Positions 1 through 41,759 of a stretch of DNA of 64,000 nucleotides are shown piece after piece. The stretch is from Allolobophora icterica (taxonomy: Eukaryota; Annelida; Clitellata; Crassiclitellata; Lumbricidae), in the NCBI GenBank assembly GCA_963556255.1, contig OY744604.1, positions 94,097,875-94,161,874 on the forward strand, read 5' to 3'. The position numbers were made by a program, and so were the translations under genes. The notes beneath the pieces are model-generated. The model saw only the letters and a program-made list of their open reading frames with translations, did not search any database and was not told the DNA's origin. Each line of letters opens with the position of its first letter. Position 1 is the first letter of the stretch.

Positions 1-520
1 TCTGTGGTTATTCCAGCCTTTACTGTGTTCCAAGCAAAAGAGTTCTAGGTTTCCGTTCTCTTTTCAGTCGCTGGTCCAAAGCTCTCGATATCGCGGTTTC
101 CGACCGCTTTCTAGTTAGGTCAGGACTTAGTTCTCATCTGTTTCGAATAGTCGTAAACGTGCATGTTTAATTGACAACATAAACTATTTTAGTCGTCATC
201 GATACTGCCTGTAAAATGTGGTCCTATTTAACTGGGATTATCGTCCTTTCTGGGTCTGCCTTTTGTTCCCCAACATTATGCTAATATCTCATGTTTAACT
301 GTATTTCCTTTTGTCGATTTTTTTAAATAAACCAAGATTGGTAATATCTTTCCAACTGCCTGTGCGAATTCAGGTTTTCTTGGTTTAGCCAAACAAGGTT
401 CTGTACTCCGCAGTGAAGATCGCAGTACCTATGATGGCATCTGAGACAAGATTGATGAGTCGCACGCATAGATGGATTACGACTAGTAAATCTACAAACG
501 CCATGGAACCTAGAAAGCGC

Positions 521-552
<32 letters not shown>

Positions 553-563
553 GTATATATATA
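1..563. other. No gene recognised; AT microsatellite at end
   Basis: No exon, repeat family or RNA gene was recognised here. A TA-rich tract at about 520-563 ends in the target duplication of the following MITE. The same holds for its mirror at 41129-41691. Confidence 0.5.
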
Positions 564-832
564 CAGTGCTTTTTTCAGCCGGAAAGCGCAGAAACGGCGT
601 TCCGGCACCTTTTTTCGGCTACTAAAAAATAATTTATTTATTTTAATAATAAAACAATAATTTAGTTGTTTTAATTTAATTTCAGTGTTGTGTTGTGAAT
701 TGTTTTCAGTGTTTATTGAGACCCCTCCCAACCCCAATACCGTTTTTTTCTGGATTTTCGCCCATCCACAACTGTTCAGTTCCGGAACCTATTGTTCAGT
801 TCCGGAACCGTTTTTTTCTAGAAAAAGCACTG
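564..832 (+). mobile_element. hAT-like MITE, left arm
   Basis: The element is 269 bp. It begins CAGTGCTTTTTTC and ends GAAAAAGCACTG, an inverted terminal repeat of about 12 bp. The 8-bp word TATATATA flanks both sides (556-563 and 833-840), the size hAT transposases produce, although the AT-rich surroundings make this duplication weaker proof than a complex word would be. Inside are GGTTCCGGAACTG-type repeats and an AT-rich half. It has no coding capacity. The mirror copy is at 40860-41128. Confidence 0.75.
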
Positions 833-840
833 TATATATA

Positions 841-3300
841 GAAGAGAAGAAATCCAGTAACAGTGAAGGCGCTACAGAAGGATACGAGACAAAAGACAAA
901 AGAACTACGAAACGCAGCTGACTTCAGTCAGTGGTCAGTTACGAACGACAGAGAAGTCAAAGTTAAGAGTTTCTGCTGCAGGATGCCAGTCAAATGACAC
1001 AACAGAGCATCCACACTTAGGAGTCTCTTTATATGGCCGAGAAAGTTTGCAGAACAATATTTGGTCACTAGTTTCAGGAGATCACATTTTAACTAGATAG
1101 CGTAATCTCCTGAGGTTAATGTAAATAAACTTGGTAACACAGTTCTCTAGAAACTTCTCAGGTCCCACAGTCGATGGATCATTGAACCCAACCAAAGTCC
1201 TGTGGTGGATTGAAACATGCATACCTTCTGTCACTTCTCGTCTTCGATGCAACGCGGTTTAGGTCATCCTTAGAGCTGTGCAGCTCTTGAAATTGAAGGT
1301 CGAGATCTTAGGATAGCATTTTAATAAGATATGGGTTTGAGACAACGTTTTGACTGCTTATTATTTATAATATCAGAGTTTAACTAGATATCCAGGTAAT
1401 AGGATTTATTCATTATGTGATAAATATAATGTTGTAGACCATACATCGTGAAACATTTTTCTAATGCATCACTTGCTGGCCATAGATAAGTATTATCATA
1501 AACTACTGTCAGACTGTGTAAGCGGTAGAAAACCAATTATGAGACGTGCAATATAAGAGGCTCAAATGTACTACCCGGAGTCAGTCGCTAAGGAGTTACC
1601 GACTGACTTGATGAGTTAGCGACTAACTTAGCGACTCAATCGACTAAGTCGCATGCCTATCGGCTGATTAAGTCGTTTAGACTTATCGACTGACTTAGCG
1701 ACTTGCTATCGACTTCACAAGCCCTAACTAATCTTAAACGTAACCCGATATAATGCATTTAACCGCATACTGTACTGACCGTGCCATCATTTCCGTGGGA
1801 ATTCGATGGGACCCATAATAGACTTTATACGGGTCCAATATGGGAATATGGGTTCAGCTCCATGTGGGCATGCTAACAGAGGACAGACCTATGGCGGTAA
1901 AAAATAATACTAATGAAGACAAAATTGTGAATTCGTGAAATTGAGCGCTTGATGAATCGAATGAAGCGGAGGATTTAGAGCAGTACAATAAACTGATCTT
2001 ACTGATTGGCAGAGCCGTTTTAAGGAGTTTGGGGGCTCTAGGTACAATCCGCACAAAGTCCACAAGCCCTAACTAACCTTAAACGTTACCCGATTTTCGC
2101 CTAAGTCTCAGATATGTGGCTGTCCATTAACTATGGTAAAAAATAGGGGAGGGGGTTTGAAAAAGTTGAACAATTCATGACAAGGGGGAGGGGGAGTTCA
2201 AGGCAAATTGACGTCAACAATAATTAATTTTTATCAAAAAGCAACCATAGATTCGGAACGTCTTTATGAGTGATTTATTTCTGTTTTGTTTTTAATTTAA
2301 TCAACGCGATATTTTCTTCGTTTCAAATTATCTTGTTTATTGTTCCCAGATTAAATGAGAAAATATGCTACAAATCTCTTAAATGAAATATCCTGGGTTC
2401 TTTTAGATATCTATGTTCGAAATCTAATATTTTGAGCTTATCTTCAGTGAAAGAACATTTTTCTTTGAATAAGTGGTTAATATTAAACGGTGAAAAACTG
2501 TGCAGGCTTATTTTAAAATTGTCGATTGAACATATTTATAGTAAATATAATATTCGAGATAACAAATTTGGTCGTTATTGGTTAAGCTGATCTTTGGGGT
2601 GGGTGGTTGCACTATATATACGCTTGGCACAAGGATGTTTCAATGTGACTTCGTTTCTTGGTTACTTAGGGGACCCTCTGAGGCTCTAACTCCGGAATGA
2701 AACATTAAATGCGTCCTCTTTTTTTCCATCTTTCCGTGTCCTTTTATGAAGAGGAAGTGAGTATGGAAAAAGATATTGATACAATCTGCCACGACTTCTG
2801 ATCAAGTCGGACCACTTGAGATCTCCAGCTGAATTATGCCTACAAGAACTTTTCTTTCCAGTGTATTCAAAATCAACCAAGCGATAAAACCGACAGCAAC
2901 TGCTATATTTTAATATGATTAGTGAGCTGAATGCAGGTCTTTAAGACTAATCGGCTCAAAACCTTGAGACAATGAGTTCGCCCTCGTTTTCTCTAATCTT
3001 TTGTAGAGTGTGGCGGAGTGGCATAAAGACACTTTGAGTCAGGGTTTTCGAGATGAGGATATTGCGTCTGATAACCAACGTGCATGTAAGGAATTGTAGT
3101 ATCTCTATTTCAGCGGTCAACACCAATACTTATGGGACGTTACATTATATCGCATCTGCGCAGTTCGTTCTAATGGACTTGACCTACAAAGAATACGGAT
3201 AAAATGTCATAAAAGGCCATGAAGCGTTCTCATTTGAGAGTGCATAACTTAACATCAATCACTGGCGTAAACTTGTCCAATATATTTGGGGGGGATGGGT
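841..3300. other. Long non-coding stretch with small repeats
   Basis: No exon was recognised. At 1578-1713 lies a degenerate array built on GACT/AGTCG words. A near-identical 30-bp segment beginning ACAAGCCCTAACTAA occurs at about 1717 and again at about 2060 in direct orientation, framing 310 bp of unassigned sequence. The mirror region is about 38390-40850. Confidence 0.45.
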
Positions 3301-3314
3301 CTGGTCTTCTGGAC

Positions 3315-3641
3315 CAGAGGTGTAAAAAAGCAAGTTTTTCAAGATGAAATCTTTTGTGTTTTTGTTGTTTTTTTTCGTTTTTTTGTTTTCATGGTTTTTA
3401 TCGTTTTGGTTATTTGTTTTTAAGATTTTCGGGTCATAAAAATCATGAAAAATGGCATGAACAAGAGCTCCAACTCTGTTTAATTCAGTTGCGATTTCCA
3501 AAAATAAAATCATTAAATCAACGTTATCAAAATAACTTCTACAAGAAGAAAGTTATTTAAAAAAAACAACAACAAATTTTGTGCTTTCTCTTTCTTGTGT
3601 TTTTTAAGCCAAAAACCGAAAAAACACTTTTTTCACCTCTG
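3315..3641 (+). mobile_element. hAT-like MITE with T-rich body, left arm
   Basis: The element is 327 bp and starts CAGAGGTGTAAAAAAGC and ends in the matching inverted sequence (reading CAGAGGTGAAAAAAGTG on the other strand). It is flanked by TTCTGGAC (3307-3314) and GTCTGGAC (3642-3649), a 7-of-8 match to an 8-bp target duplication. The body is T-rich with no credible coding. The TIR form and 8-bp duplication fit the hAT superfamily. The mirror copy is at 38052-38378. Confidence 0.7.
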
Positions 3642-3649
3642 GTCTGGAC

Positions 3650-4939
3650 AATCAGCGAGCCTCAGAGACTTCCAGTGTTTCGTAATGCGTAGGCCTATTA
3701 AATGGGTGAGTTTTGTTTACTGTAGGGATAAATTTGTTTCATATTGAAGATATTAAAAATAAAAATAAATCTTTGTTTTCATTATGAATTTCTTATAGTA
3801 TTTCAGTTTTGTGTCTCTGTTTTTCTTTTTCTGAAGAGATCTGTCTATATTGAAACATAATATAGGCCTAATTATTAATATTTGAAGAAATTCTCCTCTC
3901 GATTTTGGGGGCATTGCCCTTGCTCAATTTTGGGGGCACGTACCCCCCCCCCCCCCAGAGACTACGCCTATGACATCAATTGTGTCGGACAGCTGCTGGA
4001 TTTTTTGTTCTATTGCATTTATGGAATTTTATCGTATTCAGTTGATCTGGCGAGGTCCTTCGCCACCGCCTCCCGTTTGAATGGGTGCCACGCCATTTAA
4101 GGTCCCCGTGTATGGACCATGACCAGACTAAATGCACGGCTATCTGTTTTCATTTAACACTATAGAACAATACTGCTTCCAACGACAGATAGAGAAAGTC
4201 GTCATAAGAGTGTCTGCGAAGAAGCTTAAATCGACAGGGTTGTTCATTTATTTACATAATATGTGAACAATGATTTTGCAGCAAATTTAAGCTTCACATT
4301 GTTTCTGTATCGCTCGGGTTCAAAGATTTTTAAACCTGGCCAAAATTGTAGGAAAGTAAGAGAAACTTGTTGATTTTATTCTTTTTTGACTACAAAACAA
4401 TTTTGCTTGATTAAAAGGGTTAAGGTGGGAGAAGAAGTACACTCATACACAAAGTGGGGTCGAGTATGCTCAACGTGCAAAAATCGATGAAGATGTATGG
4501 ATAAGCCCCAGTACTGGTAGTTGAAGACTAAATTAAAATATCGCAGAATGTATGTCCGTTGCATGTTAGGTGCCATTTAATATCGCTCAAGATCTTTTAT
4601 GGACAGACTCCTTGACTAATTAAACACTCTTAGATTTACATCAGGTGAAGTAATCGATTTCAAATTCTTCAAATGTTTCGCCGTTTGTACATTGGCTGCA
4701 TCTTCAATTCTTCATGTGGTCAGGTCTGCACTGAATTGAGCTCTGACATGTCGATAACCTCGTAGAATTGAGATAAGCCATTGAATGATCCTTCGTTCAC
4801 GGCGGTGTAATACAGACTATGACGCATATTGGAACAAGAGTGTACCAGTAAGCAGTGTTTATACAGTATCGCTCATTCAAAACTGAGTTGGAATGTATGT
4901 CTATTGAGTGATGCATAGTATTAAGGCAATCCCGACAAA
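3650..4939. other. No gene recognised; poly-C run
   Basis: I see no exon or known repeat. A poly-C run near 3941-3957 differs in length between the two arms (longer on the left). The mirror region is about 36760-38050. Confidence 0.4.
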
Positions 4940-5190
4940 AGAAATGACTGAAAAGTGCCCACTGGATATATTTGCACATCCCTCTGAATTCCAGGTATTT
5001 TCAGTTCCTTCATCAATACCGCCACTCACTCAGCGTAATCTGCTTCAGGCTCCTTTTCTTATTACCCCACAAACTTTCCATTCCAAAATCAAGTCTCACC
5101 TCTTCAAGAATTCCTACCCCAGTCCATCTGATCCTCAGCCTATTAAACTTTCACGTTCTCAAAGAACCCCCTCCCCCATAACAGCTGCTC
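4940..5190 (+). mobile_element. L2/CR1-like LINE 3' fragment, left arm
   Basis: The sequence resembles the 3' end of the LINE family seen near 63100-63250: both contain a stretch reading, in sense, CAAGTCTCACCTCTTCAAG / GAAGTCTCATCTTTTCAAG followed by CTACC and CATCTGATCCTC. Only a short, non-coding remnant remains. It abuts the truncated MITE at 5196. The mirror copy is at about 36508-36758. Confidence 0.55.
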
Positions 5191-5195
5191 TACAG

Positions 5196-5506
5196 CAGTG
5201 CTTTTTTCTAGAATAAAAATGTTCCGGAACTCAGCAGTAATGGAAGGGATAAATCGAGGGCGAAGTCCGGAGAAAACGGGGTTTCGGGTTTGGGTGTATA
5301 CATCAGTATATCCCCATCTTGTAGGCTACTTTACGTCATTAATTTTATCAGCAACATCTGCGCATAACATGGCTCATTAGGTCAGCTTTATCCGGTTTGG
5401 GGAGGGTCACCGTAAGACCATCCCAACAAAATTGTTGACGTCACATTAAACTAAAATAACTAAACTGTTCTTTTATTAAAATAATTAAATTATTTTTAAT
5501 AGCATA
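5196..5506 (+). mobile_element. Truncated MITE related to 564-832, left arm
   Basis: It opens with CAGTGCTTTTTTCTAGAA and GTTCCGGAACT, and ends with an AT-rich TTAAAATAATTAAATTATT block, as does the 269-bp MITE read on its other strand. The second terminal inverted repeat is missing, so it is a 5'-complete, 3'-truncated copy. The mirror copy is at about 36192-36502. Confidence 0.55.
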
Positions 5507-6026
5507 TAAGTAGAACTTCAGAAATTCCGACAATATGCGATTATGATTAAGATAACCGTGTACATTCATTCTTGACCGGCGAAGTTTTGTTACATTAACC
5601 CGTGATATATCTGAAGAGTGTAAAGTACAAAGTGTACAGAGACTTCTATCTCATGATCCTCAGTTACTTCGGTAGGACCTATCTCCATTGTCATAACACA
5701 TCGTACAATAATTATAACAGAAATAGATCAAACGTTTCTCACCTTCCGGAAAGAGATAGAATTAAAGCATGTTTACTGCGTTTCATGTGCACAACAAAAA
5801 GACCCGTGACATCAAGTTTTTGAGCATAAGAGTCTAACAGACTAGCCTATAGCCATATGCTACTCTCATTAGGAGTTCATTAAGAGTTATTTGCAAGACT
5901 TATTACTCTTATAATTACCCTACATTAATGTCAAGCTATTCCACTGTCGCAGTTGTATCCTGTTTTTTAAGAGGCATACACTGAACTACAAATTGGACCC
6001 AATGATGAATGTTTGATGTTCTGTAG

Positions 6027-8014
6027 GGATGACTCCAGGTGCCATTGTGGGCATTGCATTCGGTTCAGTCGTCATATTTGCTATAATCGTATTTGGTCTT
6101 TATGGCACTTTTAGGTGAGATGGAAATCATCTTCGTGGTTCTATCTGTGATTATTTAAAGGTTTGAGTTGAATATTGCATTACAACTGTACGTATTTGAA
6201 GTAATTGAAATTATTGCTGGAACGGATGTTTGATAACGGTAAAATTAAATTAATTTTTTGTTTTTCGAGTTTGATTTTTGATGTATAGGCCACTTCTTTG
6301 AATTTCCATCTAAAACTGTGAGAATATTTTAATTATTTTAGAAAGACACATTACTTAGGCTAATTATTTGGTTTATTTCTCCCGGCTTCTGTTTTAAGAG
6401 AGCATTTTTCAGTCACTGGCTATAATACAAGTGAGCTATAGTTTTTGCTATGACATTTTCAGCATATTTATAATGCAAATTAACTTCTAACACAACCTGG
6501 CTAGAGTTAACTTCTGAGTCGCCAAAGCAGGTTAGGTTATTCTACTCTAAGGTTATTTGCCTGGCAAAGGCCATCTTAAGTCATTTTGAGTAAGCAAACA
6601 CTGCGAAACTCATTAAGTCATCGTCACTGTTGACCTGAGATACATTGACTGAAGGGATAGGCATATAACTCCAGTTTGAAAGTGGAGTTCTGTGATTACT
6701 GAGCACTACGAATTGTTGTGATTTATTTCCAGATATTGCAACAAATGTAAGAAAAGATTAACTCGAGGCGTGGAGGATGTTATACCAAATAGTGTTTCTG
6801 TGCAAAGGGTGAGTGACATTGTATCTAGTGATATTCAGTTGTTTTTTTGTTACCTTTGAGGTTTGAACACAATGGCATTGCACAGATTTTCCAGATAGTT
6901 GAGAAAGCCGTAGACTTGCCTGTGCATCTAGGAGTTCCAATCCATGTGCAGCTTAGTTTGGAATGTTCTTTTTGGTGGTTGGATAGCTGTTGTTGCATCT
7001 GTGTTGCATCAAAGCTCGTACGTTGACTGTGCGTCTGTGTGAACTCTGATTCATATACTCTGTGATATGCTCTTGTACTTACGTTTAGATGCCTATTGTG
7101 ACGAACACCAAGAATTTGCTATATCTGGATGGAAACACTGTTATTACTGTAATTTTCTGTCACCTCTTATTCTGCATTCAACTCTGACTATTCCCAGATT
7201 TGTACTGGACTTTGTAAAACTCAAGTTTGAAAATGTTGTTTGTAATTTCCAGACTGCAAAGACAAGTGCATCAAGTGAAGCACAGATTCTTTATAGCAGC
7301 GTGAGTTCTAGATTTATTTTTCTGACGGTTGTATATATTATGCCCTAAACATTTGTAAAGCAGCTTTAAGGACTTCCCAAAAGCACCACGAATATGGCTA
7401 CCTGAGGGATCTAAATAACTGTGGGTAGCAATTGGAAGAGAATACAACTAGAGATGAGTTGGGGAACAGTAGGCCCCTACAGTTGAACAATCAGAGGAAG
7501 AATGTAGCTTCTTATGACAGTTCGCCGTCTGTTTTAGTTGAAGCTACCAAGGGGAAAGACTAGAAGATCTCTACTGGCAGAACAAATTTAATCTTTAGCA
7601 GTCACTTGTATTTTTGCTTCCTTCACAAATTTGTCTTTCTGTATTACATAGGCACCGACTCCTTGGGAGCCTTGGGTGCGACTGCACCCAGAGAGATAGT
7701 TCAGTGGGTGCCTGGCAGCCAGAAGAATTCGAACCTTAAATTCCAATTTTTACAACTAGGTACTCTCACAACTCTTTGTGATGGAAACATTTGGTTTTCA
7801 CCGAGGTTTTCAGCACCTTTAGCTCAACACAGTGCAATGGTAGACCATGTTTTCATTTTCTTAATCTTTTGAGGGGTTTTCTCAGACATGGTCAGTGGTC
7901 ACAAATGTGTTTATTATTCACATTGAAGCCCAATTTTGTTAGTATTTATTTAATTGATGTGTTTTTTTTTATTTGAATGGGAAGCACTGAAAATATCTGA
8001 AACAGAAATATTAT

Positions 8015-8046
<32 letters not shown>

Positions 8047-8628
8047 TATATATATATATATATATTATATATATGAATGAATTGTTACGTTACATTGACA
8101 GTGGAATATGTTATGGCTGACTGTTTTTATGTTTGTGTTTCAAATCTGCGTTGCTTGCATGTGCCTTATCTTGATTTGATCTGCGAGGATAGGTTGGGCT
8201 GTTGCTAAAACCGTGGTTTTTGTTCACATATCAGTGTAAAACCATGGCCAAAACATTTAGCTCTGAAGGCAGATCATTAATACTTTAACAACGAGAGTGT
8301 ACTAAAAGCGACTGCGAACGCAATGCAGCTCATCGTTAAAGTGTTAAATATTAAATGTTAAATGTTGAACCATAAACATGCCATACCCTATGTTGTTGTT
8401 GTTTTGCAGTATCCCAGTGGTTACAGTCGTCAAGGTTGCGATATGAGCACTTTGTCTAGTGACAGTGGTCGGTTTAGTCTCACCCAGCCATCTTTATCAG
8501 CTTCAATGGTTCCTCAGAAGCCGTCACCAATTATGGAATCGAATGGAACATTAGCTGCATCAACAATCACTCCACTGATTTATCGACATCATCGACATCA
8601 TCATCATCATGGAGGGTCCATAGAGTAG
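6027..8628 (+). CDS. Single-pass membrane protein gene, last four exons (left arm)
   Basis: Four phase-compatible exons with good splice sites are 6027-6114, 6733-6808, 7253-7300 and 8410-8628. The first encodes MTPGAIVGIAFGSVVIFAII followed by VFGLYGTF, a classic transmembrane helix. The second is a basic, Cys-containing juxtamembrane stretch (YCNKCKKRLTRG). The third (TAKTSASSEAQILYSS) and fourth (Ser/Thr/Pro-rich, starting YPSGYSRQG) form a cytoplasmic tail. Donors are GTGAGA, GTGAGT and GTGAGT; all acceptors end in AG. The signal peptide and ectodomain exons were not found upstream in the arm. In the left arm the tail runs into a CAT repeat and the reading frame stops inside a SINE (TAG at 8626). 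The protein family is unknown. The mirror copy is at 33035-35671. Confidence 0.7.
8012..8074. repeat. (AT)n microsatellite in intron, left arm
   Basis: An alternating TA tract with ACATATAC interruptions in the last intron of the membrane-protein gene. Its mirror at about 33624-33687 differs by a small length change. Confidence 0.8.
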
Positions 8629-8902
8629 TGGTAACATCACTGGCGTGAAGTGCAAGAGGTAGCTGGATCGCTTCCAGAAACCTCCCCAAATTTAGGTCCA
8701 CTCAGCCTTTCATTTGCGAGATGGCGCGTTGTTAAAACGAGATGTAGAACGTGATGGGCGCCTTGCATGGCTGCCGTATACAGTTAAAATTCGACTCCTG
8801 TAATAACTTGTGATCATCCGTTCATACTGCTTTGTAATCATATTGCGTAATTGTCAGTTTGAAAATATTAAACGAAGATTATTGTTATTATTATTATTAT
8901 CC
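8613..8902 (+). mobile_element. tRNA-derived SINE, left arm (SINE family 1)
   Basis: The head starts GGGTCCATAGAGTAGTGGTAAC, read over 22 bases here as two halves: GGGTCCATAGA and GTAGTGGTAAC, which act as a Pol III A-box-like region. A degenerate B-box (GGATCGCTTCC) follows. The body contains CTCAGCCTTTCATTTGCGAG and ATGGCTGCCGTATACAG, and the tail is an ATT repeat. Related copies lie at 32800-33052, 48212-48512 and, much decayed, 62110-62312. Its first bases supply the in-frame stop of the upstream exon. Confidence 0.7.
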
Positions 8903-9138
8903 AGATATGCAGCAGCAATTACGTTAAGACAACTGTCATTGACTACCAAGAAGGACGAATCGGACTATAAATTATTAAATTCATTCTTATCAACTTGACA
9001 GCAATGTGTTTGACCGCACTGTGCCAGAAATCAGTATTAAAAGCCAGCAACTGTGTATTGTGTCAGCTCTGCAAAACCTAACACCCTATCCTCGCAAGGT
9101 GTAAGCTTTTATTCGAGACCTGACATTCTTATTTGTTA

Positions 9139-9200
9139 TTATTATTATTTTTATTATTATTATTATTATTATTATTTTTTTTTTTTATTATTATTATTAA
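9139..9200. repeat. (ATT)n microsatellite, LINE tail
   Basis: An ATT repeat with T-runs sits at the 3' end of the minus-strand CR1-like LINE that follows, so it is probably the expanded tail of that element. In the right arm the equivalent AAT tract (about 32505-32565) follows a different retrotransposon. Confidence 0.75.
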
Positions 9201-10310
9201 AGTAGTTTTAAATAGCGCCCCTTTAAGATTGCCTTCTCAGGAGCACTCCCAGCCCAACCACGGTCAAATAATGCAGTTTTGAGGACATTAAGAAACAGGG
9301 TGAAATGAATAATCGGTAGGCCTAATTGACGGAGCTTGGTAGGAAGCCCATTCCAGGTCATGGGGGCAGCCACAGAGAAGGCGCGGCGCTGCCGTATGGC
9401 TGTCCGCGCAAGGGGAACAATAAGTTCAGCTTGCGCAGCTGAGCGGAGAGAGCAACGGCGCTGCGAGCATGAGGTGGGACAGCAGAGCTCCCGCAGGTAT
9501 GGAGGGGCCAAACCTTCAAAGTACCGTCGGACAAAGGCAGAGATTCGGTAAGTAGGTAGGGGAGCCAGTGGAGGACATCCCTCATATACGCAGACACTCT
9601 GCCAAACTTAGGGATGCGGCCTACATGGCGGGCAGCAGTACGCAGGATGCTATTCAGAGGCTCAATCCGGCAGGCCGGGAGTCCGTCATATATGGCACTG
9701 CAGTAGTCCAATCGAGAAACAACAAAAGCATGGAAAAGCGTGGAAGCTGCACCGGGAGACAAAAAGACAAAGAACGGGAGATCACCTTGAGTTGCCGGAG
9801 CTTACCAGCTCCGGCAACTCAAGGTGATCTCCCGAGAGAGAGAAGATTTATGTGTCGCGTGAATGCAAGTTCTTGGTCCAGGATGACTCCCAAGTCCCGG
9901 ACCCAGGTCGAGAAAGAAAGGTGTGGGAATTGCAAGGCAAGAGAAGACAGATCTATTTTAGAGAGCTGCTGGGGAGTGCCAAGCCATATAAACTGCGTCT
10001 TGGCGGGGTTTAGCCGCAGGCGGTTTGAGGACATCCAAGCCTGCAGGGACTCCATGACATGGGTCATGGTTTGCACCGCTGCAACAGCGCGGACAGCCGG
10101 GCAGTGTATATAGGCTTGCAGGTCGTCAGCATAGGACTTGCTAAGGACCGACCAAGCCGCCAGCAGGGACCCCAGGTCGGCAGTGTAGATTATGTAAAGA
10201 AGGGGGCCAAGGACAGAGCCCTGAGACAGGTCAAATGTAGCAGGGACCCAAGGAGACCTAGTGGATGTTTACCACCATGAAGGAGCGGTCGTGCAGAAAG
10301 GAGGTAAGCC
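9197..10310 (-). mobile_element. CR1/L2-like LINE 3' portion, left arm
   Basis: Read on the minus strand, about 10290-9819 encodes the end of a reverse transcriptase: QGSVLGPLLY (motif B), SYADDLQAY (motif C, catalytic YADD) and NRLRLNPAKTQFIWLG. After a 60-bp hairpin, 9762-9197 encodes the typical LINE C-terminus (FHAFVVSRLDYCSAIYDGLP, then CSLRSAAQAELIVP, RRAFSVAAP, TWNGLP and FDRGWAGS). Several frameshifts make it non-functional. The 5' part, including the endonuclease, is missing. The right arm keeps only the upstream part, to 29180. Confidence 0.85.
9775..9834. repeat. Perfect 60-bp hairpin inside the LINE
   Basis: Stems 9775-9802 and 9807-9834 (28 bp each, starting CGGGAGATCACC) are exact reverse complements around the 4-base loop TACC. 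The right-hand LINE copy contains one stem plus the loop and two further bases, then breaks into a different retrotransposon at 29180/29181. The LINE reading frame predicts only the stem at 9775-9802, so the stem at 9807-9834 looks like a small inverted duplication of the type left by template switching. Confidence 0.9.
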
Positions 10311-10535
10311 AATCAAGAACACTGCCAGAGAACATTTGTGCTACAGGTCATCCAATGGCGCCTACATTCAACATCCATCTGAAGGAGAAGACTTCCATCC
10401 ACGTATCATGTGAATGGAGTGAATCGGCTGGAGATGAATGGAAGGAAGGGTAAAAATTATGACAGAATGTTCCGAGAGCGTCGGAGGTAGTACCTTGAGG
10501 TCGTCTACTTGATCATCCTCACTTGTGATGACAGT

Positions 10536-10744
10536 ATGATGCATCTATTGTCAATGCTGTTGGTTGTGATGTCGATTGAATCATCTGATGTTTTCACATG
10601 CTACACTTGCAGTTACATGAACAATACAAAACTTTACCCATCCAGTGTCGATGACTTGCAAGGATCCATTTTATCCAACTGGACCCTCGACCTGCTGGGA
10701 AGTATTTTTTCTCTTCACAATATTAAAGTATATCAACAAAACTG
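10536..10744 (+). CDS. Candidate first coding exon of a secreted Ly6/uPAR-like protein (left arm)
   Basis: An open exon starts with MMHLLSMLLVVMSIESSDVF, a plausible signal peptide, followed directly by TCYTCSYMNNTK. A mature N-terminus with CxxC in this position is how three-finger Ly6/uPAR domains begin. The frame is open to a strong donor (ACTG|GTAAGC at 10744/10745). No later exon was identified; downstream the LTR element intervenes. The right-arm copy (28237-28445) has Ile in place of Thr in SNWTLDLLG and keeps the donor. The family assignment rests on the signal peptide and one Cys pair only. Confidence 0.4.
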
Positions 10745-10933
10745 GTAAGCAAACTTAAAGCAAATGTGGGGCATATGGCTTGGTGAGACAATTCAATTAC
10801 AAATATCTGGGGCATACTTGTTTGCATGCATACTATGCTTACTCGAGCAGTGAATGGTCTATTTAGTCGGAGTTTAAGAGACATTTTCAGTCTATCTTAA
10901 GTCACCCCTTGAACACCTGCTACATATATCTAC

Positions 10934-11230
10934 AGGGATCGGTTGGGACCGGAACGGCGTTCCGGTTCTTTTTTGACGACCTGTATGTTTTAGACAGGTT
11001 TCACAGGAACATTTCTAGATTAACATGGCGTCTGACGCCGGCGTTCCGGTTTTTTTTTGCTTAGGACGGGTTCCCTGCAGATATAGCTATGACCCTTTGC
11101 GAAGTTCTGCAAAGGCGGTATATAAATAGCCAGACACACGCATACTTGTCTACATGCATAGATACATACACACACATGCGTACACACTTACATACGTAAA
11201 TGCTTACATACATACATACATACATATGTT
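10934..11230 (+). repeat. Palindrome-rich repeat with (ACAT)n tail, left arm
   Basis: About 10948-10965 reads CCGGAACGGCGTTCCGG, palindromic except for its central base, and GGCGTTCCGG recurs at 11040. CAGGGA-type ends near 10936 and 11088 suggest a small inverted-repeat element, but no convincing target duplication was found. A TATAAATAG word (11119) and an ACAT microsatellite (11158-11226) follow, a pattern common at LINE/SINE 3' ends. The mirror is at about 25310-25610. Confidence 0.4.
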
Positions 11231-11968
11231 TTTGATGACGGATGTCTAGTTCTTTTGTCTCATGTCACATTAATTGTCACGTGTCACATGTGCTTCAGAT
11301 AGTGCAGATGTTCAGGTATTACTGTTATTCTCTGATTGTTACATGCACTCAATATCATCTTGTATATGTACACGTTTTTGGCTCTCGCAGGCTGTAACTA
11401 GAGGTGCGTGGTTTTATAACTCTAATTGAGAGTGATAGGCCTACGCCTTGTTTCAATTTATTCCACTGATTATAGGAGAGACTTTCAATTATCGTTCTCC
11501 TGAACAGTTACTGTTTGATGCTAGAGAGTATTTGAGTCACTGCTTGTTTATATAGCTGTACGAATATTTTACATAGATGTACGAACATTCTATACATGGC
11601 CCATACTTGCTTGAGTATACACTGATCATTGCTATGGTCATTTGTGATACAAAGCCAATATTATATGTTTCCAATAGACACTGAGGCCCAGTCTCATGAC
11701 CTATTATCTCTATATCTAATTGATTGTTGTCGCGGCTGTGCGTTTCGCTCCTGTGATTTCATTACCAAAGGATTTGTCAACTCAACTGTAGAGTTTGTAC
11801 ATACTTAGTTAAGGATTTACCTAGAATAGTCGATAAATTCAATGTACGATAATGGATCCCAATGGAACTATTGTAAAGTGAATACTTCGAACATGCCTAG
11901 CACCCGGGGCGACTACTCCATAGAAATCTTGGAGTAAATGCTCCATCCAAAAACTAGAGGGGGAGACC
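11231..11968. other. Unassigned; ends in polypurine tract before LTR
   Basis: No coding signal was found. The last bases (about 11956-11968, AGAGGGGGAGACC) form a purine-rich tract immediately upstream of the LTR start. In LTR elements this is where the polypurine tract of the upstream internal region lies, so part of this stretch may be 3' untranslated sequence of a Gmr1-like element. The mirror is at about 24574-25310. Confidence 0.35.
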
Positions 11969-32100: not shown

Positions 32101-32514
32101 CGCTGATTCCTTGGTCACGCGGACGATGCCTGACATGGGACGTGACAGTGCCCGATACCTACGCCACCTCCCACCTTGCCCACACATCCATCGGAGCTGG
32201 CGAAGCCGCGGAACATGCAGTTCTGATCAAGAGGGCGAAATACGCAACCATCACTAACACCCATACCTTTGTGGCGATCGCTTTGGAGACGGGCGGATCT
32301 TGGAGCGGTGAAGGCCTACAGTTCGTCGTGGAGCTGGGAAGCCGGATATCGGACTCAACGCACGATCCACTGGAGACATCATATTTGTTCCAACGGATTT
32401 CAGTGGCCCTGCAACGTGGAAATGCCATTTGCCTTTCCAGGACACTGCCACCTCTGTCTGAGTGACGCTAAGATGGCGCTTCAGATAATTAAATCATCAT
32501 TGTTAAATACAATA

Positions 32515-32545
<31 letters not shown>
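29181..32545 (+). mobile_element. Non-LTR retrotransposon with restriction-like endonuclease, right arm only
   Basis: It starts abruptly at 29181, has about 370 bp of 5' leader, one long frame (29550-32465), a very short 3' UTR of about 50 bp, then an (AAT)n tract that merges with the microsatellite shared by both arms. No clean target duplication is visible. The left arm has 0.6 kb of LINE 3' end in its place, so this is an insertion with replacement rather than a simple insertion. The intact frame suggests recent mobility. Confidence 0.85.
29550..32465 (+). CDS. Reverse transcriptase/endonuclease of an R2/R4/NeSL-like LINE
   Basis: The 971-residue single ORF has an N-terminal Cys/His cluster (CGVCWSSF...HRH...CPGS), probably a zinc finger. 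The reverse transcriptase has ALSKKDGGIRPIAVG, motif A with D401 (KLDFTNAFN), EEGTQQGDPLGP and YLDD at 482-485. The C-terminal part has a CCHC knuckle (C787, C790, H800, C804) followed by a PD-(D/E)xK restriction-like endonuclease (KRPDG with D848, then WDVTV with D864). This layout (RT, CCHC, RLE, no APE endonuclease) is that of the early-branching, often site-specific LINEs (R2, R4, NeSL, Hero, Utopia). The exact clade needs a phylogeny. The start at 29550 is the first ATG in frame and precedes the zinc finger. Confidence 0.9.
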   Translation: MSQKPCKGQGVCGVCWSSFKTHASDGTIHRHGPRSAPCPGSDQPPADGPANPLTATQSFSTMNQQIASSQGLSADEDLPPNASRLSHPILPGVLIKRIPRAARPSCAALLGDLIQAIVQEPNCIGKWSDLLAFGGTVLAKPKRGGRKHNVTKTILSRIADWKSRGSNYSTNVGLNSTDKPKATKYDSTKYLATAVARKLEEGNFKAAIRLVCSEDKPALETPETLAALKHKHPLAPVDRRTPCDPDSSERFIALQVSKEEVTRAISSFPSGSAGGPDGITPQHLKDLVAFGVDDNICQHLSDLVNMLLKGGLPEEANEVIYGANLLALSKKDGGIRPIAVGYTWRRLAAKCANSYAVTRLSQLLAPIQLGVGIPGGAEAAVHATRRWVTTMPEDSVLVKLDFTNAFNTLRRDSLLEAVARDIPELYRFAHAAYSNRPLLRYGSNIIRSEEGTQQGDPLGPLEFCLVLQPVLIKLSSDLRIGYLDDLTLGGSKESVAADVHLIAQESKTLGLLLHRSKCEIACQNIQTPIDDPAFQDFTKMAFEQMTLLGAPLIQGPAVDKVLETKANDLERAIARLSLLHTHDALVLLRNSLSIPKLLYSMRTAVCADCPGLARFDKLLREGLSTILNVNLDDDRWLQASLPVRDGGLGVRCASTLALSAFLASAASTTELQTCILPTESTEIPYELVNSALTAWKTLTDAEPPTGTATHRQKEWDIRYTDKARTGLLESTSCPRDRARLLASQAPHSGDWMLAPPVTALGLRLSDEEIRIAVGVRLGTALCEPHLCHHCRENVDARGLHGLVCRGGGGKQQRHAMLNDVIWRALSRAKIPAQKEPLGLSRGNGKRPDGVTLIPWSRGRCLTWDVTVPDTYATSHLAHTSIGAGEAAEHAVLIKRAKYATITNTHTFVAIALETGGSWSGEGLQFVVELGSRISDSTHDPLETSYLFQRISVALQRGNAICLSRTLPPLSE

Positions 32546-32565
32546 TAAAAATAATAATAATAACA
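32505..32565. repeat. (AAT)n tract at retrotransposon 3' end
   Basis: AAT repeats with an internal AAAA. The distal part pairs with the ATT tract of the left arm; the proximal part belongs to the right-arm retrotransposon tail. Confidence 0.75.
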
Positions 32566-32799
32566 AATAAGAATGTCAGGTCTCGAATAAAAGCTTACAC
32601 TTTGCGAGGATAGGGTGTTAGGTTTTGCAGAGCTGACACAATACACAGTTGCTGGCTTTTAATACTGATTTCTGGCACAGTGCGGTCAAACACATTGCTG
32701 TCAAGTTGATAAGAATGAATTTAATAATTTATAGTCCGATTCGTCCTTCTTGGTAGTCAATGACAGTTGTCTTAACGTAATTGCTGCTGCATATCTGGA

Positions 32800-33052
32800 T
32801 AATAATAATAATAACAATAATCTTCGTTTAATATTTTCAAACTGACAATTACGCAATATGATTACAAAGCAGTATGAACGGATGATCACAAGTTATTACA
32901 GGAGTCGAATTTTAACTGTATACGGCAGCCATGCAAGCCACAAGGCGCCCATCACGTCAGGCTGAGTGGACCTTTGGGAGGGTTGTGGGAAGCGATCCCA
33001 CTACCTACTGCTCTTCGCGCCAGTGGTGTTACCACTACTCTATGGACCCCCC
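32800..33052 (-). mobile_element. tRNA-derived SINE, right arm (SINE family 1)
   Basis: Mirror of 8613-8902, but its front half differs strongly. It reads CACCACTGGCGCGAAGAGC where the left has CATCACTGGCGTGAAGTGC, its B-box region is GGGATCGCTTCCCAC, and about 45 bp between CTCAGCC and GTGATGGGCG are missing. The 3' half matches the left arm closely. Confidence 0.7.
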
Positions 33053-33651
33053 ATATATATACTGTATGCACCCTCCCCCAACATAGGCGTCATCTGCATT
33101 GCCATCTTCCTGTATGCCGATCAGTGGAGTGATTGTTGATGCAGCTAATGTTCCATTCGATTCCATAATTGGTGACGGCTTCTGAGGAACCATTGAAGCT
33201 GATAAAGATGGCTGGGTGAGACTAAACCGACCACTGTCACTAGACAAAGTGCTCATATCGCAACCTTGACGACTGTAACCACTGGGATACTGCAAAACAA
33301 CAACAACATAGGGTATGGCATGTTTATGGTTCAACATTTAACATTTAATATTTAACACTTTAACGATGAGCTGCATTGCGTTCGCAGTCGCTTTTAGTAC
33401 ACTCTCGTTGTTAAAGTATTAATGATCTGCCTTCAGAGCTAAATGTTTTGGCCATGGTTTTACACTGATATGTGAACAAAAACCACGGTTTTAGCAACAG
33501 CCCAACCTATCCTCGCAGATCAAATCAAGATAAGGCACATGCAAGCAACGCAGATTTGAAACACAAACATAAAAACAGTCAGCCATAACATATTCCACTG
33601 TCAATGTAACGTAACAATTCATTCATATATATAATATATATATATATATAA

Positions 33652-33683
<32 letters not shown>

Positions 33684-35671
33684 ATAATATTTCTGTTTCA
33701 GATATTTTCAGTGCTTCCCATTCAAATAAAAAAAAACACATCAATTAAATAAATACTAACAAAATTGGGCTTCAATGTGAATAATAAACACATTTGTGAC
33801 CACTGACCATGTCTGAGAAAACCCCTCAAAAGATTAAGAAAATGAAAACATGGTCTACCATTGCACTGTGTTGAGCTAAAGGTGCTGAAAACCTCGGTGA
33901 AAACCAAATGTTTCCATCACAAAGAGTTGTGAGAGTACCTAGTTGTAAAAATTGGAATTTAAGGTTCGAATTCTTCTGGCTGCCAGGCACCCACTGAACT
34001 ATCTCTCTGGGTGCAGTCGCACCCAAGGCTCCCAAGGAGTCGGTGCCTATGTAATACAGAAAGACAAATTTGTGAAGGAAGCAAAAATACAAGTGACTGC
34101 TAAAGATTAAATTTGTTCTGCCAGTAGAGATCTTCTAGTCTTTCCCCTTGGTAGCTTCAACTAAAACAGACGGCGAACTGTCATAAGAAGCTACATTCTT
34201 CCTCTGATTGTTCAACTGTAGGGGCCTACTGTTCCCCAAATCATCTCTAGTTGTATTCTCTTCCAATTGCTACCCACAGTTATTTAGATCCCTCAGGTAG
34301 CCATATTCGTGGTGCTTTTGGGAAGTCCTTAAAGCTGCTTTACAAATGTTTAGGGCATAATATATACAACCGTCAGAAAAATAAATCTAGAACTCACGCT
34401 GCTATAAAGAATCTGTGCTTCACTTGATGCACTTGTCTTTGCAGTCTGGAAATTACAAACAACATTTTCAAACTTGAGTTTTACAAAGTCCAGTACAAAT
34501 CTGGGAATAGTCAGAGTTGAATGCAGAATAAGAGGTGACAGAAAATTACAGTAATAACAGTGTTTCCATCCAGATATAGCAAATTCTTGGTGTTCGTCAC
34601 AATAGGCATCTAAACGTAAGTACAAGAGCATATCACAGAGTATATGAATCAGAGTTCACACAGACGCACAGTCAACGTACGAGCTTTGATGCAACACAGA
34701 TGCAACAACAGCTATCCAACCACCAAAAAGAACATTCCAAACTAAGCTGCACATGGATTGGAACTCCTAGATGCACAGGCAAGTCTACGGCTTTCTCAAC
34801 TATCTGGAAAATCTGTGCAATGCCATTGTGTTCAAACCTCAAAGGTAACAAAAAAACAACTGAATATCACTAGATACAATGTCACTCACCCTTTGCACAG
34901 AAACACTATTTGGTATAACATCCTCCACGCCTCGAGTTAATCTTTTCTTACATTTGTTGCAATATCTGGAAATAAATCACAACAATTCGTAGTGCTCAGT
35001 AATCACAGAACTCCACTTTCAAACTGGAGTTATATGCCTATCCCTTCAGTCAATGTATCTCAGGTCAACAGTGACGATGACTTAATGAGTTTCGCAGTGT
35101 TTGCTTACTCAAAATGACTTAAGATGGCCTTTGCCAGGCAAATAACCTTAGAGTAGAATAACCTAACCTGCTTTGGCGACTCAGAAGTTAACTCTAGCCA
35201 GGTTGTGTTAGAAGTTAATTTGCATTATAAATATGCTGAAAATGTCATAGCAAAAACTATAGCTCACTTGTATTATAGCCAGTGACTGAAAAATGCTCTC
35301 TTAAAACAGAAGCCGGGAGAAATAAACCAAATAATTAGCCTAAGTAATGTGTCTTTCTAAAATAATTAAAATATTCTCACAGTTTTAGATGGAAATTCAA
35401 AGAAGTGGCCTATACATCAAAAATCAAACTCGAAAAACAAAAAATTAATTTAATTTTACCGTTATCAAACATCCGTTCCAGCAATAATTTCAATTACTTC
35501 AAATACGTACAGTTGTAATGCAATATTCAACTCAAACCTTTAAATAATCACAGATAGAACCACGAAGATGATTTCCATCTCACCTAAAAGTGCCATAAAG
35601 ACCAAATACGATGATAGCAAATATGACGACTGAACCGAATGCAATGCCCACAATGGCACCTGGAGTCATCC
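33035..35671 (-). CDS. Single-pass membrane protein gene, last four exons (right arm)
   Basis: Mirror of the left-arm gene with exons 35584-35671, 34890-34965, 34398-34445 and 33035-33289, all splice sites intact. The transmembrane and juxtamembrane exons match the left arm. The last exon reads beyond TITPLI into GIQEDGNADDAYVGGGC before stopping in the SINE, where the left arm has a short His-rich run from a CAT repeat instead. The right arm probably keeps the older form of the C-terminus. No homologous family was recognised; the tail is Ser/Thr/Pro-rich with no obvious catalytic domain. Confidence 0.7.
33624..33687. repeat. (AT)n microsatellite in intron, right arm
   Basis: Mirror of 8012-8074 with a one-base length difference. 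Confidence 0.8.
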
Positions 35672-36191
35672 CTACAGAACATCAAACATTCATCATTGGG
35701 TCCAATTTGTAGTTCAGTGTATGCCTCTTAAAAAACAGGATACAACTGCGACAGTGGAATAGCTTGACATTAATGTAGGGTAATTATAAGAGTAATAAGT
35801 CTTGCAAATAACTCTTAATGAACTCCTAATGAGAGTAGCATATGGCTATAGGCTAGTCTGTTAGACTCTTATGCTCAAAAACTTGATGTCACGGGTCTTT
35901 TTGTTGTGCACATGAAACGCAGTAAACATGCTTTAATTCTATCTCTTTCCGGAAGGTGAGAAACGTTTGATCTATTTCTGTTATAATTATTGTACGATGT
36001 GTTATGACAATGGAGATAGGTCCTACCGAAGTAACTGAGGATCATGAGATAGAAGTCTCTGTACACTTTGTACTTTACACTCTTCAGATATATCACGGGT
36101 TAATGTAACAAAACTTCGCCGGTCAAGAATGAATGTACACGGTTATCTTAATCATAATCGCATATTGTCGGAATTTCTGAAGTTCTACTTA

Positions 36192-36502
36192 TATGCTATT
36201 AAAAATAATTTAATTATTTTAATAAAAGAACAGTTTAGTTATTTTAGTTTAATGTGACGTCAACAATTTTGTTGGGATGGTCTTACGGTGACCCTCCCCA
36301 AACCGGATAAAGCTGACCTAATGAGCCATGTTATGCGCAGATGTTGCTGATAAAATTAATGACGTAAAGTAGCCTACAAGATGGGGATATACTGATGTAT
36401 ACACCCAAACCCGAAACCCCGTTTTCTCCGGACTTCGCCCTCGATTTATCCCTTCCATTACTGCTGAGTTCCGGAACATTTTTATTCTAGAAAAAAGCAC
36501 TG
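36192..36502 (-). mobile_element. Truncated MITE, right arm
   Basis: Mirror of 5196-5506, one terminal inverted repeat only (CAGTGCTTTTTTCTAG on the minus strand). Confidence 0.55.
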
Positions 36503-36507
36503 CTGTA

Positions 36508-36758
36508 GAGCAGCTGTTATGGGGGAGGGGGTTCTTTGAGAACGTGAAAGTTTAATAGGCTGAGGATCAGATGGACTGGGGTAGGAATTCTTGAAGAGGT
36601 GAGACTTGATTTTGGAATGGAAAGTTTGTGGGGTAATAAGAAAAGGAGCCTGAAGCAGATTACGCTGAGTGAGTGGCGGTATTGATGAAGGAACTGAAAA
36701 TACCTGGAATTCAGAGGGATGTGCAAATATATCCAGTGGGCACTTTTCAGTCATTTCT
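36508..36758 (-). mobile_element. L2/CR1-like LINE 3' fragment, right arm
   Basis: Mirror of 4940-5190; non-coding remnant. Confidence 0.55.
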
Positions 36759-38051
36759 TTTGTCGGGATTGCCTTAATACTATGCATCACTCAATAGACA
36801 TACATTCCAACTCAGTTTTGAATGAGCGATACTGTATAAACACTGCTTACTGGTACACTCTTGTTCCAATATGCGTCATAGTCTGTATTACACCGCCGTG
36901 AACGAAGGATCATTCAATGGCTTATCTCAATTCTACGAGGTTATCGACATGTCAGAGCTCAATTCAGTGCAGACCTGACCACATGAAGAATTGAAGATGC
37001 AGCCAATGTACAAACGGCGAAACATTTGAAGAATTTGAAATCGATTACTTCACCTGATGTAAATCTAAGAGTGTTTAATTAGTCAAGGAGTCTGTCCATA
37101 AAAGATCTTGAGCGATATTAAATGGCACCTAACATGCAACGGACATACATTCTGCGATATTTTAATTTAGTCTTCAACTACCAGTACTGGGGCTTATCCA
37201 TACATCTTCATCGATTTTTGCACGTTGAGCATACTCGACCCCACTTTGTGTATGAGTGTACTTCTTCTCCCACCTTAACCCTTTTAATCAAGCAAAATTG
37301 TTTTGTAGTCAAAAAAGAATAAAATCAACAAGTTTCTCTTACTTTCCTACAATTTTGGCCAGGTTTAAAAATCTTTGAACCCGAGCGATACAGAAACAAT
37401 GTGAAGCTTAAATTTGCTGCAAAATCATTGTTCACATATTATGTAAATAAATGAACAACCCTGTCGATTTAAGCTTCTTCGCAGACACTCTTATGACGAC
37501 TTTCTCTATCTGTCGTTGGAAGCAGTATTGTTCTATAGTGTTAAATGAAAACAGATAGCCGTGCATTTAGTCTGGTCATGGTCCATACACGGGGACCTTA
37601 AATGGCGTGGCACCCATTCAAACGGGAGGCGGTGGCGAAGGACCTCGCCAGATCAACTGAATACGATAAAATTCCATAAATGCAATAGAACAAAAAATCC
37701 AGCAGCTGTCCGACACAATTGATGTCATAGGCGTAGTCTCTGGGGGGGGGTACGTGCCCCCAAAATTGAGCAAGGGCAATGCCCCCAAAATCGAGAGGAG
37801 AATTTCTTCAAATATTAATAATTAGGCCTATATTATGTTTCAATATAGACAGATCTCTTCAGAAAAAGAAAAACAGAGACACAAAACTGAAATACTATAA
37901 GAAATTCATAATGAAAACAAAGATTTATTTTTATTTTTAATATCTTCAATATGAAACAAATTTATCCCTACAGTAAACAAAACTCACCCATTTAATAGGC
38001 CTACGCATTACGAAACACTGGAAGTCTCTGAGGCTCGCTGATTGTCCAGAC

Positions 38052-38378
38052 CAGAGGTGAAAAAAGTGTTTTTTCGGTTTTTGGCTTAAAAAACACAAGA
38101 AAGAGAAAGCACAAAATTTGTTGTTGTTTTTTTTAAATAACTTTCTTCTTGTAGAAGTTATTTTGATAACGTTGATTTAATGATTTTATTTTTGGAAATC
38201 GCAACTGAATTAAACAGAGTTGGAGCTCTTGTTCATGCCATTTTTCATGATTTTTATGACCCGAAAATCTTAAAAACAAATAACCAAAACGATAAAAACC
38301 ATGAAAACAAAAAAACGAAAAAAAACAACAAAAACACAAAAGATTTCATCTTGAAAAACTTGCTTTTTTACACCTCTG
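38052..38378 (-). mobile_element. hAT-like MITE with A-rich body, right arm
   Basis: Mirror of 3315-3641 with the same 327-bp length and CAGAGGTG ends. Confidence 0.7.
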
Positions 38379-40859
38379 GTCCAGAAGACCAGACCCATCC
38401 CCCCCAAATATATTGGACAAGTTTACGCCAGTGATTGATGTTAAGTTATGCACTCTCAAATGAGAACGCTTCATGGCCTTTTATGACATTTTATCCGTAT
38501 TCTTTGTAGGTCAAGTCCATTAGAACGAACTGCGCAGATGCGATATAATGTAACGTCCCATAAGTATTGGTGTTGACCGCTGAAATAGAGATACTACAAT
38601 TCCTTACATGCACGTTGGTTATCAGACGCAATATCCTCATCTCGAAAACCCTGACTCAAAGTGTCTTATGCCACTCCGCCACACTCTACAAAAGATTAGA
38701 GAAAACGAGGGCGAACTCATTGTCTCAAGGTTTTGAGCCGATTAGTCTTAAAGACCTGCATTCAGCTCACTAATCATATTAAAATATAGCGGTTGCTGTC
38801 GGTTTTATCGCTTGGTTGATTTCGAATACACTGGAAAGAAAAGTTCTTGTAGGCATAATTCAGCTGGAGATCTCAAGTGGTCCGACTTGATCAGAAGTCG
38901 TGGCAGATTGTATCAATATCTTTTTCCATACTCACTTCCTCTTCATAAAAGGACACGGAAAGATGGAAAAAAAGAGGACGCATTTAATGTTTCATTCCGG
39001 AGTTAGAGCCTCAGAGGGTCCCCTAAGTAACCAAGAAACGAAGTCACATTGAAACATCCTTGTGCCAAGCGTATATATAGTGCAACCACCCACCCCAAAG
39101 ATCAGCTTAACCAATAACGACCAAATTTGTTATCTCGAATATTATATTTACTATAAATATGTTCAATCGACAATTTTAAAATAAGCCTGCACAGTTTTTC
39201 ACCGTTTAATATTAACCACTTATTCAAAGAAAAATGTTCTTTCACTGAAGATAAGCTCAAAATATTAGATTTCGAACATAGATATCTAAAAGAACCCAGG
39301 ATATTTCATTTAAGAGATTTGTAGCATATTTTCTCATTTAATCTGGGAACAATAAACAAGATAATTTGAAACGAAGAAAATATCGCGTTGATTAAATTAA
39401 AAACAAAACAGAAATAAATCACTCATAAAGACGTTCCGAATCTATGGTTGCTTTTTGATAAAAATTAATTATTGTTGACGTCAATTTGCCTTGAACTCCC
39501 CCTCCCCCTTGTCATGAATTGTTCAACTTTTTCAAACCCCCTCCCCTATTTTTTACCATAGTTAATGGACAGCCACATATCTGAGACTTAGGCGAAAATC
39601 GGGTAACGTTTAAGGTTAGTTAGGGCTTGTGGACTTTGTGCGGATTGTACCTAGAGCCCCCAAACTCCTTAAAACGGCTCTGCCAATCAGTAAGATCAGT
39701 TTATTGTACTGCTCTAAATCCTCCGCTTCATTCGATTCATCAAGCGCTCAATTTCACGAATTCACAATTTTGTCTTCATTAGTATTATTTTTTACCGCCA
39801 TAGGTCTGTCCTCTGTTAGCATGCCCACATGGAGCTGAACCCATATTCCCATATTGGACCCGTATAAAGTCTATTATGGGTCCCATCGAATTCCCACGGA
39901 AATGATGGCACGGTCAGTACAGTATGCGGTTAAATGCATTATATCGGGTTACGTTTAAGATTAGTTAGGGCTTGTGAAGTCGATAGCAAGTCGCTAAGTC
40001 AGTCGATAAGTCTAAACGACTTAATCAGCCGATAGGCATGCGACTTAGTCGATTGAGTCGCTAAGTTAGTCGCTAACTCATCAAGTCAGTCGGTAACTCC
40101 TTAGCGACTGACTCCGGGTAGTACATTTGAGCCTCTTATATTGCACGTCTCATAATTGGTTTTCTACCGCTTACACAGTCTGACAGTAGTTTATGATAAT
40201 ACTTATCTATGGCCAGCAAGTGATGCATTAGAAAAATGTTTCACGATGTATGGTCTACAACATTATATTTATCACATAATGAATAAATCCTATTACCTGG
40301 ATATCTAGTTAAACTCTGATATTATAAATAATAAGCAGTCAAAACGTTGTCTCAAACCCATATCTTATTAAAATGCTATCCTAAGATCTCGACCTTCAAT
40401 TTCAAGAGCTGCACAGCTCTAAGGATGACCTAAACCGCGTTGCATCGAAGACGAGAAGTGACAGAAGGTATGCATGTTTCAATCCACCACAGGACTTTGG
40501 TTGGGTTCAATGATCCATCGACTGTGGGACCTGAGAAGTTTCTAGAGAACTGTGTTACCAAGTTTATTTACATTAACCTCAGGAGATTACGCTATCTAGT
40601 TAAAATGTGATCTCCTGAAACTAGTGACCAAATATTGTTCTGCAAACTTTCTCGGCCATATAAAGAGACTCCTAAGTGTGGATGCTCTGTTGTGTCATTT
40701 GACTGGCATCCTGCAGCAGAAACTCTTAACTTTGACTTCTCTGTCGTTCGTAACTGACCACTGACTGAAGTCAGCTGCGTTTCGTAGTTCTTTTGTCTTT
40801 TGTCTCGTATCCTTCTGTAGCGCCTTCACTGTTACTGGATTTCTTCTCTTCTATATATA

Positions 40860-41128
40860 CAGTGCTTTTTCTAGAAAAAAACGGTTCCGGAACTGAACAA
40901 TAGGTTCCGGAACTGAACAGTTGTGGATGGGCGAAAATCCAGAAAAAAACGGTATTGGGGTTGGGAGGGGTCTCAATAAACACTGAAAACAATTCACAAC
41001 ACAACACTGAAATTAAATTAAAACAACTAAATTATTGTTTTATTATTAAAATAAATAAATTATTTTTTAGTAGCCGAAAAAAGGTGCCGGAACGCCGTTT
41101 CTGCGCTTTCCGGCTGAAAAAAGCACTG
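40860..41128 (-). mobile_element. hAT-like MITE, right arm
   Basis: Mirror of 564-832, same 269-bp length, CAGTGCTTTTT ends and TATATATA flanks. Confidence 0.75.
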
Positions 41129-41139
41129 TATATATATAC

Positions 41140-41171
<32 letters not shown>

Positions 41172-41759
41172 GCGCTTTCTAGGTTCCATGGCGTTTGTAG
41201 ATTTACTAGTCGTAATCCATCTATGCGTGCGACTCATCAATCTTGTCTCAGATGCCATCATAGGTACTGCGATCTTCACTGCGGAGTACAGAACCTTGTT
41301 TGGCTAAACCAAGAAAACCTGAATTCGCACAGGCAGTTGGAAAGATATTACCAATCTTGGTTTATTTAAAAAAATCGACAAAAGGAAATACAGTTAAACA
41401 TGAGATATTAGCATAATGTTGGGGAACAAAAGGCAGACCCAGAAAGGACGATAATCCCAGTTAAATAGGACCACATTTTACAGGCAGTATCGATGACGAC
41501 TAAAATAGTTCATGTTGTCAATTAAACATGCACGTTTACGACTATTCGAAACAGATGAGAACTAAGTCCTGACCTAACTAGAAAGCGGTCGGAAACCGCG
41601 ATATCGAGAGCTTTGGACCAGCGACTGAAAAGAGAACGGAAACCTAGAACTCTTTTGCTTGGAACACAGTAAAGGCTGGAATAACCACAGAGCAAATGTA
41701 TTTTCTTAATACCATTTTAAAATGAGTGTCAGATCAAGATAACTAGGTAGTCGCTTGAT

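Follow-up and report, generated by a model that had tools for sequence, protein, structure and literature searches.

The described systems closest to the locus considered here are palindromes of mammals and invertebrates and fold-back inverted duplications. For 12 palindromes of the primate X chromosome the median arm identity was 99.953% and the median arm length 37 kb (PMC8981503). In the chromosome-scale assembly of Botryllus, palindromes of gene order were recognized by synteny and, following depth and error checks, were judged by their authors to be likely real (PMC12448946). The palindromes of the 2013 Adineta vaga assembly consist of homologous blocks placed head to head on one scaffold (PMC7953838, PMC5916493). 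Lastly, in ODIRA and other fold-back inverted duplications, inverted arms lie around a short spacer (PMC10766186).

The window analysed in this work is a stretch of 64,000 nucleotides from Allolobophora icterica, which corresponds to C3:94097875–94161874 in its own assembly (1.118 Gb, 328 contigs; C3 is 97.7 Mb). The assembled locus contains a gap-free mirror that is bounded at both edges, a step in divergence along its arms, genes in both arms and a second palindrome nearby, and its best explanation, to which we assign a probability of roughly 60%, is a true and young inverted duplication of 191.5 kb on one chromosome. That this duplication exists in the chromosome, how the events followed one another and whether gene conversion acted are matters of our reading of the assembled sequence. 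The locus resembles the palindromes of mammalian sex chromosomes (PMC8981503) in having more than 99.9% identity over most of the arm, genes in both arms and two palindromes close together, but its arms of 91–100 kb are longer than the median there and conversion is only suggested. It shares with the Botryllus case an invertebrate host and a chromosome-scale assembly, whereas it is a mirror of sequence known from the assembly alone. The blocks of A. vaga raise the same doubt about assembly error, although the arms at our locus are far more alike. A later A. vaga assembly is reportedly without the 2013 palindromes.

The window lies wholly inside the palindrome and is divided as follows (coordinates without a prefix are those of the window):

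1–18113, plus strand: part of the left arm within the window; the arm continues to C3:94024675 (about window position -73199) and measures 91.3 kb in total
18114–18427, no strand: hinge spacer of 314 bp, comprising the minus-strand end of RNase H, the stop codon and the start of the 3' untranslated region of the right Gmr1-like copy
18428–64000, minus strand: part of the right arm within the window; the arm continues to C3:94216207 (about window position 118333) and measures 99.9 kb in total

Positions 1–18113 are the reverse complement of 18428–41691 in the form of four collinear blocks, in which 1–8579 pairs with 33120–41691 (99.86% identity), 8762–9176 with 32523–32937 (99.5%), 9801–10935 with 28046–29180 (99.9%) and 10928–18113 with 18428–25615 (99.94%). 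Together these blocks comprise about 17,308 aligned bases with 10 mismatches and five short indels; three of the latter affect runs of C, of G and of AT, one is a C within a T run and one is an A2/A3 difference. A chance origin of the mirror is ruled out, since the longest inverted BLAST match in 20 shuffles was of 44 bases. A preliminary description of this window had proposed a near-perfect palindrome of more than 41 kb, which is confirmed in the sequence and proves to be far larger than claimed; the lengths that it gave for the arms, its two large differences and its single divergent patch also agree with the block alignment. However, the position that it gave as the end, 41691, is the mirror partner of window base 1 and not the end of an arm, and the mirror goes far beyond it. 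Similarly, the region from 48 to 64 kb, which it had taken for a unique flank, belongs to the right arm; as this region is duplicated too, it is unfit as a single-copy depth control.

The complete palindrome (C3:94024675–94216207) has two inverted arms of more than 10 kb that are more than 99% identical, a short spacer and defined outer edges, as is characteristic of large palindromes. No N bases occur across C3:94001000–94237000, which includes the hinge and both outer edges. The outer edge sits in an (AAT)n tract, which is short at the left and consists of 107 units at the right. The 23.7 kb to the left of the outer edge contain no match of more than 95% and at least 300 bases to the right arm or to the 20.8 kb beyond it, and four further probes (L026, L027, L029, L030), compared with the retrieved flanking sequence only, gave no near-full mirror match there; the left edge probe L024 (C3:94010000) fell in a young repeat and was uninformative on the edge. 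The mirror thus does not continue into the flanks, as it should in an inverted haplotype misjoin, and there is no scaffold gap at the join, where a filled gap is possible.

Outside tandem repeats, 49 substitutions distinguish the arms in 81,856 aligned bases. The outermost ~1 kb contains 22 of these and the next ~5 kb two, with the outer 991 bases being 97.6% identical and the adjoining 4.3 kb 99.93%; the remaining parts of the arms together have 27 substitutions in ~76.5 kb. The outermost kilobase therefore diverges by ~2.3% and the rest of the arms by ~0.035%, and the clustering of 22 of the 49 substitutions in the outermost 5.3 kb is highly significant (P = 7e-14). Near the internal heterologies of the window no significant clustering was observed (4 of 10 SNPs within 1 kb, P = 0.13). 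In the sequence retrieved around the palindrome, the outer kilobase is present only in the two arms. The step in divergence suggests either gene conversion that ends before the end of the arm or the joining of two copies of the outer kilobase that had already diverged; both would leave such a step.

The hinge of the palindrome is located within a retrotransposon, of which the following parts are recognized:

11977–13118, plus strand: 5' LTR belonging to the left copy of the element, with its mirror copy at 23423–24565
13516–18159, plus strand: left Gmr1-like ORF copy (stop to stop), with element sequence up to 18113, where it breaks off within RNase H
18172–23025, minus strand: right Gmr1-like copy with a complete Gag-integrase-RT-RNase H ORF of 1617 aa, integrase before RT

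Over 4598 bases the two element copies differ by one base and one residue. Within the 1617-aa ORF, the integrase lies between residues 748 and 1096, RT at 1244–1402 and RNase H up to 1595, and there is a SCAN match in Gag. The encoding of integrase before RT-RNase H is the order reported for Gmr elements and it is shared with Gmr1-like Ty3/gypsy elements (PMC4131045), to which the element is assigned by domain order and not by a tree; unlike those, both copies here are truncated at the hinge. Three close copies of the element (one on C13 near 33.29 Mb and two on C3 near 12.88 Mb) continue past the hinge edge with a purine tract followed by the LTR. As these three copies, among which the parent copy is not included, have no short inverted repeat or complement of the arm end at the join, the ends seem to have been joined bluntly, with roughly one base added. 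In ODIRA (PMC10766186) a short inverted repeat is found at the join, and hence a primary event of this kind at such a repeat is unsupported here; the spacer of 314 bp falls between the primary spacings (40–80) and the later ones (1.1–34.9 kb) described for that process.

Among the 40 of 108 candidates that were scored, copies of the 1142-bp LTR with 100% identity occur only in the two arms and no third copy exceeds 97%, the next best matches being two pieces at 97% on C9 followed by others of at most 92%. Additionally, the 3' end or LTR of the element was not found at the outer flanks examined, where a single simple-repeat match was obtained. Loss of the distal side would account for the lack of a third LTR copy above 97% and of the 3' end, whereas a misjoin should leave the 3' end assembled elsewhere; it may also be, however, that the 3' LTR was not assembled or does not resemble the 5' LTR. 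C9:3811011–3812015 holds a short derivative of this element, in which parts of the LTR at 97% surround a piece of the 3' untranslated region; it is probably the result of a large internal deletion.

The segments by which the arms differ within the window are listed below:

25616–28045, plus strand: DNA transposon of the right arm only, with 13-bp terminal repeats and an 8-bp target duplication
29181–32522, plus strand: segment of the right arm only, with an R2-like RT ORF of 975 aa, ending in (AAT)n
9177–9800, minus strand: 3' part of another LINE (624 bp), left arm only, in whose place the right arm has the R2-like segment
9775–9834, no strand: hairpin of the left arm with a 28-bp stem and the loop GGTA; the right arm diverges 2 bases past the loop
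8580–8761, no strand: divergent SINE patch, left version (182 bp)
32938–33119, no strand: divergent SINE patch, right version (182 bp), with another SINE 5' half and ~65 bp of different flank
53465–57222, no strand: third large segment of the right arm only (3758 bp), CCC being common to its flanks

The transposon at 25616–28045 is hAT-like by its terminal signs only, viz. the 8-bp target duplication and the short terminal inverted repeats, as neither of its ORFs matched a Pfam family, including a hAT transposase domain, at E 0.001. These two ORFs, which are in different frames, overlap close to an A run (26594–26706); decay or a consensus error may be responsible. The 975-aa ORF resembles the R2 RT in three PDB matches, the best two of which are named R2 (E 1.4e-6 and 2.3e-6). 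This R2-like element does not reside in 28S rDNA; it sits in a LINE and an (AAT)n tract, and no Rfam family reached the gathering score in the window. It starts at the tip of the hairpin that is retained by the left arm. Both of the large insertions noted in the preliminary description do exist as differences, but 29181–32522 and 9177–9800 replace one another and are not a plain insertion. The SINE patch measures exactly 182 bp in each arm with an ungapped identity of 26%. The segment at 53465–57222 may have been deleted from the left arm through 3-bp microhomology, or else inserted with duplication of 3 bp. Beyond the window, two further segments are present only in the left arm (396 bp at C3:94030898–94031293 and 70 bp at C3:94064184–94064253).

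A second near-perfect palindrome, with arms of at least 23 kb, is located 43 kb to the left of the first (C3:93933909–93980608). A probe from its one end (C3:93980000–93980608) matches its other end (C3:93933909–93934517) in inverted orientation with 100% identity; its hinge spacer is of 585 bp (C3:93956972–93957556) and the flanking arms are 99.94% identical over 4672 bases. Stretches of N, which may be gaps or withheld sequence, occur at C3:93749000–93750700, and a probe at C4:30000000 likewise consisted of N only. Of the four control probes searched out of ten, L037, L042 and L046 are repeats and uninformative on palindromes (the closest copies of L046 share its chromosome, and one of these is in inverse orientation), and the sole informative control, L045, is single-copy and has no near-identical partner. 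Probe L037 (C1:20000000) belongs to a repeat family in which all 40 scored copies are 100% identical, and the family of the left edge probe L024 has 27 rows at 100%, in both cases over 701 bases. These families indicate that mobile elements have been very active recently in this genome. Given families with so many copies at 100%, a scarcity of SNPs next to large insertions could also arise if the duplication is simply young, which weakens the argument that this combination needs homogenization.

The main alternative to a true duplication is an assembly artefact, in which one locus, represented by two haplotypes or by one, was assembled twice and joined head to head in the retrotransposon; a further false exit would then lie at the (AAT)n tract. 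A long retrotransposon and a microsatellite, in which the hinge and the edge respectively lie, are places prone to assembly error, and two palindromes in one region, with stretches of N ~0.27 Mb off, may mark poor assembly. Published lists of palindromes are described as including misassembly false positives (PMC7953838), and one account gives 23 palindromes for the 2013 A. vaga assembly and reports none detected in A. ricciae (PMC5916493). Palindromic reads are stated to form 40–50% of the total in amplified Arabidopsis as compared to 0.5% in the unamplified control (PMC6218980), and fold-back reads to recur at fixed sites and to be capable of tangling assembly graphs; the latter source, however, also describes such artefacts as seldom recurrent with newer pores, and the 200-bp step that its tool uses to define them is smaller than the 314-bp spacer (PMC12870357). 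A single molecule read twice is ruled out as the whole story by the multi-kb differences between the arms. A simple inverted join of haplotypes would mirror past the edge, and an artefact thus needs two misjoins, both of them seamless in view of the N-free hinge and edges. Moreover, it would be odd for alleles to diverge by 0.035% over the inner part and by 2.3% in the last kilobase.

A true inverted duplication is favoured over double assembly because the mirror is bounded on both sides and free of gaps, a neighbouring palindrome is present and the divergence jumps only in the outermost kilobase. Arm identity close to that of the primate X palindromes (PMC8981503), and the lack of an assembled continuation of the element among the candidates scored, also speak for it. 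Of the two readings offered in the preliminary description, a true palindrome with conversion and two haplotypes joined in inverse orientation, the first is accordingly preferred, while the artefact, although rather unlikely, retains real weight. It is very improbable that the assembler wrongly brought together two real copies that are nearly identical but situated at separate places in the genome; low divergence together with private segments would fit such copies, but a duplication and two misjoins would be needed and the arm probes that were searched revealed no third near-identical copy.

If the inverted duplication is real, two broken or switched ends would have met within the Gmr1-like retrotransposon and been joined, apparently without a common short inverted repeat, giving rise to the 314-bp hinge, and the new arm would have been joined at its outer end to other sequence at the (AAT)n microsatellite. 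Mobile elements would later have been gained by the right arm, and either arm-to-arm gene conversion did not reach the arm end or the junction lay between two diverged copies of the last kilobase. We tentatively propose a fuller account, in which at least two natural palindromes occur near the chromosome end, the 191-kb one was born by end joining in a retrotransposon, its arms stay nearly identical through arm-to-arm conversion that stops ~1 kb short of the arm end and mobile elements continue to land in one arm. A real palindrome would provide a sharp test of the reach of conversion along an arm, with 2.3% and 0.035% divergence meeting within one kilobase, and it would add a further animal to those with large palindromes that carry intact genes, with a retrotransposon as the birthplace. 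If it is artificial, ~91 kb of genes and elements are counted twice in a chromosome-scale assembly with no visible gap.

The following gene is present in both arms:

48486–51479, plus strand: Mab-21 family gene with 997 open codons; the left copy lies at about -9675 to -6685

Mab-21 proteins form a cGAS-like family. The left ORF differs from the right copy (48486–51476) by two base changes and one residue and has no stop, and the protein has 101 protein relatives, the best with 57% identity. Two short ORFs on the minus strand (57942–58205 and 61754–61924) match Calpain_III, one scoring above and one below the Pfam cut-off; they are identical in the left arm and are probably exons of one gene. 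The preliminary description had placed host exons in both arms, and this holds for the Mab-21 and calpain-like sequences, which lie outside its own arm limits; between 33120 and 41760, none of the 28 ORFs scanned, out of 70 listed ORFs of at least 45 aa, gave a convincing match to a host family. In the same part of the right arm as the calpain-like ORFs, a local inverted repeat (107–116 bp, 92–94%) flanks tandem arrays at 60823–61349.
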